From positions 1,031,001-1,095,000 of the forward strand of contig JACYXH010000319.1 of assembly GCA_026745465.1 (NCBI GenBank): a stretch of 64,000 nucleotides of DNA, given 5' to 3'. The notes beneath the pieces were generated by a model. It had not been told where the DNA came from, ran no database searches, and saw nothing but the letters and a program-made list of their open reading frames with translations. Positions 55,901-58,900 of this stretch are shown here, in pieces (the first letter of the stretch is position 1; each line of letters starts with the position of its first letter). A program made the translations under genes and the position numbers. This DNA is from Lota lota. Taxonomy: Eukaryota > Chordata > Actinopteri > Gadiformes > Lotidae.

Positions 55901-58900
55901 GACACAGAGAGAGAGAAGGAGAGAGAGAGAGACAGAGAGAGACAGAGAGACACAGAGAGAGAGAAGGAGAGAGAGAGAGACAGAGAGACACAGAGAGACA
56001 CAGAGAGAGAGAAGGAGAGAGAGAGACAGAGAGAGACAGAGAGACACAGAGAGAGAGAAGGAGAGAGAGAGAGAGAGAGAGAGAGAGAGAGAGAGAGAGA
56101 GAGAGAGAGAGAGAGAGAGAGAGAGAGAGAGAGAGAAGGAGAGAGAGAGACAGAGAGAGAGAGAGAGACAGAGAGACACAGAGAGAGAGAAGGAGAGAGA
56201 GAGAGACAGAGAGACACAGAGAGAGAGAAGGAGAGAGAGAGACAGAGAGAGACAGAGAGACACAGAGAGAGAGAAGGAGAGAGAGAGAGAGAGAGAGAGA
56301 GAGAGAGAGAGAGAGAGAGAGAGAGAGAGAGAGAGAGAGAGAGAGAGAGAGAGAGAGAGAGAGAGAGAGAGAGAGAGAGAGAGAAGGAGAGAGAGAGACA
56401 GAGAGAGAGAGACAGAGAGACAGAGAGAGTAAGAGAGAGACAGAGAGACAGAGAGAGAGAGACAGAGAGAGAGACAGACAGAGACAGAGAGACAGAGAGA
56501 GAAAGAGAGAGAGCAACAGAGAGAGACAGAGAAAGAAGAGAGAGACAGAGAGAAGGAGAGAGAGAGTAAGAGAGAGAGAGAAAGAGAGAGTGAGAGAGAC
56601 AGAGAGAGAGAGAGACAGAGTTTGAGAGAGAGACAGAGTGAGAAGGAGAGAGAAAGAGAAAGAGAGAGATAGACAGAGTTTGAGAGCGAGACAGAGAGTA
56701 AGAGAGATATATAGAGAGGGAGACAAAGAGAAAGAGTGAGAGAGGATGAGAGAGCGCGAGAGAGAAAGAGAAAGAGAGAGAGTGTGAGAAGTGGTAGATA
56801 ACAGAATGTGTGCTTGTTGAGCGGTGGGGGAATAGTATTAGACGTGCTAGATCATGTTAAATATACGTTTGCTAAAAGGAGCGAGCAATCACTGTTCCTC
56901 TTTGAGAAAATGGTGGGAAAGGAAATTACGTTAACATCAGTGAAGACGGATGTCAGTGCTGCTCATTGCTCTGGCTGTTTGTGTTTATCAGCCTGAGGAA
57001 AAAGGATTTCCATTTCAGGGGGAAATAAGTTATCCCATTATCTTCAGTCTATATCAATTGCATTCAGTGACACTTATTGGAATCTCTTGCATCCTTTCGT
57101 TATCAATCTTGGTAGCTCGAAAAACAAATTTGTTGGTTGACTGATAATTCTGTGTTTTGCGATAGATCAAGATGTTCTTGATAGAGTCCCAGGTCTTGCT
57201 GTAGTAAATGCAGCTAAATTGCTAGCGGCATTTACTACAGCAGGTGACACATTCTAACGGAATGGATACACAGACGCGGCTACTTTTCTTAACCAAAAGG
57301 ACATCTCTCTCTTGCCTTCTTTGCCCTGTTCATTATATGTTTTGATATGATATGACCTTATGACCTTTTAAGTGATTCTTTTATTTTCTCACCACTAAAC
57401 TCCCAAATCCCATTCTCTAGTGCACATCCCGCCCCCTAGCCCTTACCCAGGGTGCCCGTGCACATCCCGCCCCCTAGCCCTTACCCAGGGTGCCCGTGCA
57501 CATCCCGCCCCCTAGCCCTCACCCAGGGTGCCCGTGCACATCCCGCCCCCTAGCCCTTACCCAGGGTGCCCGTGCACATCCCGCCCCCTAGCCCTCACCC
57601 AGGGTGCCCGTGCACATCCCACCCCCTAGCCCTTACCCAGGGTGCCCGTGCACAGGCAGTTGTGAGTCCGGGGAGGAGGCTTGGTGTGGTGGCTGTCCAG
57701 AATCTGCTGCACCAGCTGCTCCACTGAGAAGCCAGAGCTGCTGTTCCCGTTGCTGCAAGTCCACTTGATGCCATGAACTGCCAGGGGGGAGAGGAGGAGA
57801 CAGAGATGTCAGCCAGCCCTACAGACCACCAGCCACGCCAGCCCCCCTGCCCCAGCCTCTGCCCTATCCCTGCCTGTCCTGACCAGTTCCCTCTCTCCAT
57901 GCCATGCAAGGCCCTGAGACGCAGTGAACAGTATGTCTTTGAGTTCACCTGTGGGTAAACATTGGCCAGGAGCAATGTTGAGGCTAAACATCTCGGTCAG
58001 CAATTCAGCTGTAGCAATAGTATTAGTGAATTGCATGTAATCTTTTTCCACGGAGGGCACCTATGTTAACAAAGTATGTAATAGTGTATACGCACTGAGC
58101 AAAAGAGACCCCATAGACTAGGTTGTAGGACTTTGAATTCAACAAGCCCAAGAAAACCAGTCCAATCTGTATTCACACCCTCGACTCTCAGACATCAAGC
58201 AAAAGTCACAGGTTGATGCCGACCAGAACACCATTTCTCAGCAGAATTTGCTTTTTATTTATTGCATCTACTTTTATTCTCACATGGTTCTCTCGCATCC
58301 AGCTCCTTGCTCATTGCAGTCCAGCTATATGCCTCTGGCGCACTACAGGCTTGACTACAGTCATACAGTCCCTTGTCCGCCCTGATTCCCAGGCTGTGCG
58401 TACCGCAGCGCACCCTTCATCAGGGTAGCTGGCAGGCAAACTGGACCTGGTGTCCCTGCATCTCCCCTGTGTCCAGGTGTGTACACACACACACATACAC
58501 ACTTACACACATACGCACACACCTCATACACACATGTACGTTGACATACACACATGCACAAGCACCCTCACACACACATGCATGGGTGCACAGCAACGCA
58601 CACACACACAACACGCACATGCTTGAACAGACACACACATAGACACATAAACACACACATATGCATACAAACACACACACACAGCTTTCACACACACACA
58701 CACACACACACACACACACACACACACACACACACACACCATCCCTTGCCTGGCCTGTATCTCTGTTATGACAGGGGAAGCCGCTAAGGGACAAGCATAT
58801 AATGTTGGATCTGCTGCTGCAGCTGGATCGGTAGAGCGGGCACAAGAGAGAGAGAGAGAGAGAGAGAGAGAGAGAGAGAGAGAGAGAGAGAGAGAGAGAG

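Follow-up and report, generated by a model that had tools for sequence, protein, structure and literature searches.

The closest described counterpart of the array reported here lies in human IFI6, where a tandem array sits at an exon-intron border and two downstream repeat units are described as serving as donors, which yields three mRNA species (PMC4526556). As a repeat that provides more than one donor, the IFI6 minisatellite is a direct precedent. Introns gained when a segment bearing a splice site was duplicated in tandem have likewise been described, for a potato RdRp gene (PeerJ 2016) and in Drosophila (BMC Evol Biol 2010). Intronic minisatellites also feature in gene papers on earthworm and sea bream, the available portions of which describe no copied donors. 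Short tandem repeats are reported to be exceptionally abundant in codfish genomes (PMC5894186, PMC6868369), and the available part of one of these accounts gives densities of 80,706 (cod) and 96,364 (haddock) bp per Mb for unit sizes of 1-10 bp and, in that part, makes no mention of splice-donor arrays such as that of camta1 (PMC5894186). Literature on donor-bearing, exon-border, fish and cod minisatellites, judged by title and the start of the abstract and drawn mostly from outside the subscription journals, held no recurrent exon-end donor arrays among the papers listed, which is a weak negative.

The window analysed here, a stretch of 64,000 nucleotides, is part of contig C319 in a genome of 575 Mb and contains an array of this kind at the start of a camta1 intron. 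The features on which the following description relies are:

57637..57777, minus strand: camta1 coding exon, 141 nt, with a phase-1 end (...CTGTL + G), placed by alignment and by the homology of its end to an exon of locus L002
55834..57636, minus strand: intron of 1803 nt, bounded by the first donor and the acceptor at 55834, with the following exon starting at 55833
55840..56789, minus strand: CT-rich microsatellite in the same camta1 intron (Tandem Repeats Finder and sequence)
57420..57654, minus strand: 38-bp minisatellite with six complete units (57653-57426) and a partial one of 6 nt (Tandem Repeats Finder)
57631..57636, minus strand: authentic donor, gtaagg, in the first unit when read in sense, from the sequence
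57593..57598, minus strand: spare donor 2, gtgagg, from the sequence
57555..57560, minus strand: spare donor 3, gtaagg, from the sequence
57517..57522, minus strand: spare donor 4, gtgagg, with an exon extension of 114 nt, a multiple of three, from the sequence
57479..57484, minus strand: spare donor 5, gtaagg, from the sequence
57441..57446, minus strand: spare donor 6, gtaagg, from the sequence

Read on the minus strand, the 141-nt exon (57777-57637) translates into HGIKWTCSNGNSSSGFSVEQLVQQILDSHHTKPPPRTHNCLCTGTL, plus one additional G. The preceding exon (63646-63491) and the following one (from 55833) align collinearly with a human CAMTA1 query, and joining 57637 to 55833 produces CTGTLG-AGSSVHHKC, in agreement with that query. 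Locus L002, which we take to be camta2-like, contains a homologous exon with 75% DNA identity over 92 bases that ends at the same position (ATGG/gtaaca) and carries a single donor and no array. Because this homologous exon shares its end and the neighbouring exons align to CAMTA1, both the end of the exon and its donor at 57636 are well supported. The first-pass annotation had placed the array exon in the CG-1 region, an assignment that did not hold: the 143-residue stretch made up of this exon and its neighbours had no match in Pfam, CG-1 included, at E values up to 0.1, and the CG-1 matches lie elsewhere, two of them in the camta2-like locus and one, among the best candidates, at C319:1196813, about 108 kb upstream of the array exon on the same contig and strand. 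In the array-bearing intron, the CT-rich microsatellite measures about 950 bp (window 55840-56789), taking up the 3' half and reaching the acceptor.

Tandem Repeats Finder delimits the array at 57420-57654, with a period of 38, 6.2 copies, 97% matches, 0% indels and a score of 449. Each unit joins 17 terminal exon bases to 21 intron bases that include the donor, and one further upstream base also matches, which brings the stretch that equals the exon end exactly to 18 nt ahead of all five later donors. The GT dinucleotides fall at 57636, 57598, 57560, 57522, 57484, and 57446 on the minus strand and are followed at position +3 by A, G, A, G, A, and A, respectively. Two of the 38 unit columns are variable, any two units differ at 0 to 2 bases, and this regularity rules out that the array arose by chance. 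The six exact-period copies of exon end and donor that had been annotated from the letters alone were thus recovered both by the repeat finder and by a listing of the units; the five spare donors opening the intron at 38-nt steps were found where expected (GT positions 57598 to 57446), and the distribution of GTAAGG and GTGAGG over the units is identical to the earlier listing.

Compared with the described systems, the camta1 array resembles that of IFI6 in having a donor in each unit (six units, six donors) and a first unit that spans the authentic exon-intron border. The IFI6 units are, at 12 bp, shorter than the 38 bp of camta1, and the downstream donors of IFI6 give rise to coding isoforms, whereas the first spare donor of camta1 already brings in a stop. 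The intron-gain cases in potato and Drosophila share with camta1 a tandem duplication that copies a segment bearing a splice site; however, they create a new intron, while copies 2-6 of camta1 fall downstream of the authentic donor within an existing intron, where no new donor-acceptor pair arises and none is needed.

The stop that separates camta1 from IFI6 lies close to the normal exon end:

57626..57628, minus strand: in-frame TAG at intron +9 to +11, found by translation and predicted to terminate the protein for all spare donors and for intron retention

Reading across the exon end gives GGT AAG GGC TAG, with the stop (57628-57626) reached after 8 nt of intron. The spare donors would extend the exon by 38, 76, 114, 152, or 190 nt, and because all of these extensions read through the TAG, every spare donor would lead to a common truncated end; the predicted protein terminus, CTGTLGKG followed by the stop, is identical for all five and for intron retention. 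In-frame coding isoforms of the IFI6 type are therefore not predicted from any of the five downstream donors, given that the TAG stops them all. A frame shift had been annotated as the key consequence of spare-donor use. The 114-nt extension alone would keep the frame; the shared in-frame stop replaces a frame shift as the main consequence.

Two short repeats at the ends of the array, and a set of motifs within it, bear on its origin:

57648..57654, minus strand: TGTGCAC, exonic copy of a putative 7-bp seed repeat, from the sequence
57420..57426, minus strand: TGTGCAC, second copy of the putative seed, located distally where the array stops, from the sequence
57428..57647, minus strand: six G-quadruplex-type motifs (at least four GGG runs), one per unit and each overlapping a donor, from a motif search; quadruplex formation is putative

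A pattern search of the whole 575-Mb genome for the 38-bp unit, allowing up to 3 mismatches, gave 6 matches, all six of them in this array. Because the unit matches all lie here, we conclude that the array arose in place, and a dispersed satellite inserted at the camta1 exon was rejected on the same search, which found no copy elsewhere. The 18 exon-end nucleotides are identical before all five later donors, and the expansion, or a homogenisation of the units, should therefore be recent. Short repeats flanking a unit are the classical starting point for slippage or unequal exchange. TGTGCAC is the likely seed of the camta1 array: a lone ancestral unit would have been flanked on either side by this 7-bp sequence, 38 bp apart, with one copy in the exon and one in the old intron. 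The minisatellite would then have been born in place through slippage or unequal exchange at the exon-intron border, probably seeded by TGTGCAC, and would have grown solely intron-ward of the first donor. All six units carry at least four GGG runs on one strand, the sense strand, and may form quadruplexes. As a general cause of such arrays, G-quadruplexes were set aside, since other arrays of the class lack these motifs by eye; on this visual rather than computed judgement, quadruplex-type motifs appear unnecessary for the birth or the tolerance of an array.

The first-pass annotation had presented the camta1 array as a one-off, and this has to be revised: unlike what is described for IFI6, several unrelated genes of this genome carry arrays built in the same way. 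Other arrays were sampled genome-wide with triple-motif patterns (GGGTRAGG, AGGTRAGT, and TGGTAAGT) and a reversed-motif control, in contig order and among the matches listed. The samples comprised 15 of 16 distinct GGGTRAGG arrays among the matches listed (one was omitted as the inverted copy of another), all 15 AGGTRAGT arrays among the matches listed, and 14 of the 18 TGGTAAGT arrays among the matches listed (C311, C416:4153262, C547, and C594 were omitted), together with 16 of the first 17 control arrays among the matches listed, C13:4 being dropped for its overlap with a donor array. Three arrays with a poor upstream edge were kept in the set of 44 (L048 starts at a contig end, L084 after N, and L100 inside its own array), and at several control loci the first motif lies ahead of the array, which makes the array edge less exact there. 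Frames of at least 15 residues leading into the first donor numbered 59 and came from 38 of the 44 arrays; 51 of these were scanned with Pfam, as were 15 of the 16 control frames, which came from 9 of 16 arrays. PDB searches covered single frames picked by eye.

Five of the 44 arrays start at the end of an exon with a protein match (two DOCK1-like, one PA-domain, one PTBP, and one cGMP-kinase-2-like), and for four of the 44 a Pfam match at E up to 0.01 extends to the donor (3/15 AGGTRAGT, 1/15 GGGTRAGG). In L034 (G000:C11, about 342875-343187), a 33/37-bp array with ten donors starts at the end of a DOCK1-like SH3 exon (Pfam SH3 domain, E 8.9e-6). When its first donor is joined across the array to the exon that follows, an unbroken 43-residue DOCK1 match results (PDB, 2.2e-19), and its spare donors at +33 and +66 precede any stop (98 nt) and keep the frame, which would add 11 or 22 residues in the SH3 domain; for these first two spare donors, the array is thus predicted to allow in-frame isoforms as in IFI6. 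About 100 kb away on this contig, with the strand shared and in the order expected of one gene, a three-donor array (L047; G000:C11, about 241859-241967) follows a DOCK TPR exon (Pfam DOCK TPR region, E 5.5e-7 trimmed, 2.2e-6 untrimmed), and L034 and L047 are possibly in the same gene. L067 (G000:C17, about 562531-562766 and beyond) has mixed donor steps of 21, 33, and 54 nt at the end of a PA-domain exon (Pfam PA domain, E 1.3e-11 trimmed, 2.2e-11 untrimmed); its PA-domain frame has no match in PDB, and the gene is presumably EDEM3-like. L083 (G000:C28, about 425971-426898) is a 46-bp array with 19 overlapping triple matches among the matches listed, starting at the end of a PTBP RRM exon (Pfam RRM, 6.4e-10; PDB match PTBP2 or PTBP1, best 1.4e-14); PTBP regulates splicing in its own right. 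L097 is the weakest of the five cases: it follows a cGMP-dependent protein kinase 2-like exon (PDB E 4.8e-6, Pfam none, frame picked by eye) and has only three donors with little sequence common to them.

The control set contributed a case of its own. L106 (G000:C17, about 2604350-2604496) follows a transportin-1-like exon (3.2e-23; Pfam HEAT repeat, 1.1e-5), and its copies carry gtgaat donors, each preceded by a near-copy of the exon end. The reversed-motif arrays were consequently abandoned as a donor-free control, 1/16 being itself an exon-end donor array, and exon-end arrays in the donor set and the control (5/44 versus 1/16) show no difference, and no excess of such arrays over chance is claimed. 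Nor is an enrichment of donor motifs in minisatellites claimed: triple-motif counts against the reversed-motif control were 4673 versus 942 for GGGTRAGG, 1747 versus 926 for AGGTRAGT, and 129 versus 482 for TGGTAAGT, so that the sign differs between motifs, and large arrays are counted many times. With about 6 to 7 triple matches per array among the matches listed, the 1747 AGGTRAGT and 4673 GGGTRAGG matches correspond, as a rough scale, to some hundreds of arrays each, and exon-end donor arrays in the genome could be of the order of a hundred, a figure extrapolated from a small sample in contig order. Two further arrays were not counted. L082 (G000:C28, from 218150) has 27 donors in the examined stretch, at steps of 41 or 43 bp after what may be a short exon preceded by an acceptor; the one frame scanned had no match in Pfam, and another was too short to scan. 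L089 looks exon-like and has no Pfam match.

Across these genes the copies vary in length and spacing. The exact exon-end bases before the later donors number 18 in camta1, 17 or 22 in DOCK1-SH3, 8 or 14 in the PA gene, 9 in PTBP, and 3 in DOCK-TPR; in the transportin array there are 4, then one mismatch within a longer match. Donor steps are 38 nt in camta1, 33 and 37 nt in DOCK1-SH3, 21, 33, and 54 nt in the PA gene, 46 nt in PTBP, 37 nt in transportin, and 46 and 55 nt in DOCK-TPR. The first stop past the normal exon end comes after 8 nt in camta1, 98 nt in DOCK1-SH3, 5 nt in the PA gene, 11 nt in PTBP, 75 nt in transportin, and 60 nt in DOCK-TPR.

The account that we favour, with somewhat better than even confidence, is that the camta1 array is a minisatellite that formed in place by slippage or exchange at the donor and is mostly hidden by use of the exon-proximal donor. 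The mature camta1 message would remain unchanged so long as the spliceosome takes the exon-proximal of six nearly equal donors. From these sequences we infer that the first donor is used nearly always, with some unproductive leakage, and that any other donor choice would meet the same in-frame stop and should be cleared by nonsense-mediated decay. Among the observations that speak for this account, besides the confinement of the unit matches to this locus, the identical 18 exon-end nucleotides and the in-frame TAG, the exon encodes a conserved CAMTA stretch whose correct join requires the first donor, and the occurrence of such arrays in the DOCK1-like, PA-domain, PTBP, and transportin-like genes is consistent with duplicated donors being tolerated in general. 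Predicted U1 pairing amounts to -9.7 and -9.8 kcal/mol for the two donor types, versus -11.8 kcal/mol for the consensus, and because it is about equal for both types, donor sequence cannot decide the choice. The surroundings of the donors do differ. Counting runs of at least three G, 31 in total, donor 1 has 2 upstream, 1 spanning, and 28 downstream, whereas the corresponding counts for donor 6 are 27, 1, and 3. G-runs are bound by hnRNP H/F and support a donor from the intron, while often silencing it from the exon. The G-runs just downstream of each donor would accordingly favour a donor when they lie on its intronic side and hinder it when they fall within the extended exon, and the first copy, with nearly all G-runs on the helpful side, could win without being stronger. 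Such a G-run polarity may favour the exon-nearest donor copy.

Eperon in 1993 and Hodson in 2012 reportedly found that, where donors are equally occupied, the intron-proximal one is often preferred, which suggests a point against first-donor use and against the G-run polarity, given that the intron-proximal donor is here the wrong one. If this proximity preference of donor competition assays governed camta1, the gene would yield mainly truncated protein or be failing; we regard this as very unlikely, as the downstream exon retains an open, conserved frame and the best candidates include one CG-1 match beyond the camta2-like locus, which makes a loss probably costly. An error of assembly, be it a wrong copy number or repeats generated in the process, would have a known cause in tandem repeats, as the available part of one codfish report notes (PMC6868369), but it is just as improbable for an array of just about 234 bp with two variant columns mixed among the units, a pattern unexpected from simple re-use of one unit.

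Two readings that give the spare donors a function are unlikely as well, if less so. Some camta1 transcripts might take spare donors under regulation, hit the shared stop, and be degraded, with copy number tuning the dose of CAMTA1. The convergence of all five spare donors and intron retention on one stop would suit such a brake, as would the intactness of the spare donors and their nearly equal predicted U1 pairing; however, the distance to the first stop differs across genes (5 to 98 nt), and an early stop is therefore no shared design feature. We attach a similarly low probability to the idea that the spare donors, together with the G-runs, serve as an enhancer within the intron, recruiting U1 and boosting use of the exon without being cut. 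Here, the 28 runs of at least three G downstream of the first donor, and a donor (TGG/gtaagg) below the consensus in predicted U1 pairing, are set against a camta2-like paralogue whose exon has a single donor and no array, and against other arrays of the class that are not similarly G-rich.

A broader and more tentative proposal can be made, which we think possible though doubtful: donor-seeded minisatellites would form a recurrent class (about a hundred introns if the sample holds), showing that the vertebrate spliceosome reliably picks the exon-proximal of many near-identical donors by position alone, with copy number as a heritable dial on unproductive splicing. Rules of donor choice have been established largely with artificial duplicated splice sites. 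Arrays of the camta1 type are natural duplicated-donor experiments, offering near-identical donors at regular steps in conserved genes, with six such donors in camta1 and at least ten in the DOCK1-like gene. Array copy number probably varies between individuals, as the nature of minisatellites suggests. Near-constant use of the first donor would mean that the choice is dictated from the exon side where donor sequence cannot decide it; otherwise, copy number at these sites would be a source of heritable differences in gene output. That such arrays recur in further conserved genes raises their significance beyond the single case of camta1.

Tandem Repeats Finder assigns 17% of the window to tandem repeats and 7.4% to repeats with a unit of 10 or less, the latter share being near the cod and haddock densities given in the available part of the codfish survey, although the methods differ (PMC5894186). 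Positions 2967-7667 hold about 213 copies of a G-rich unit, each about 23 bp long, in an array of 4.7 kb. At 12415-13154, the same program finds two overlapping, related minisatellites with units of 69 and 57 bp, both of which contain GTTATGTTATG runs and a CAAACTAAAGCAGAGT core.
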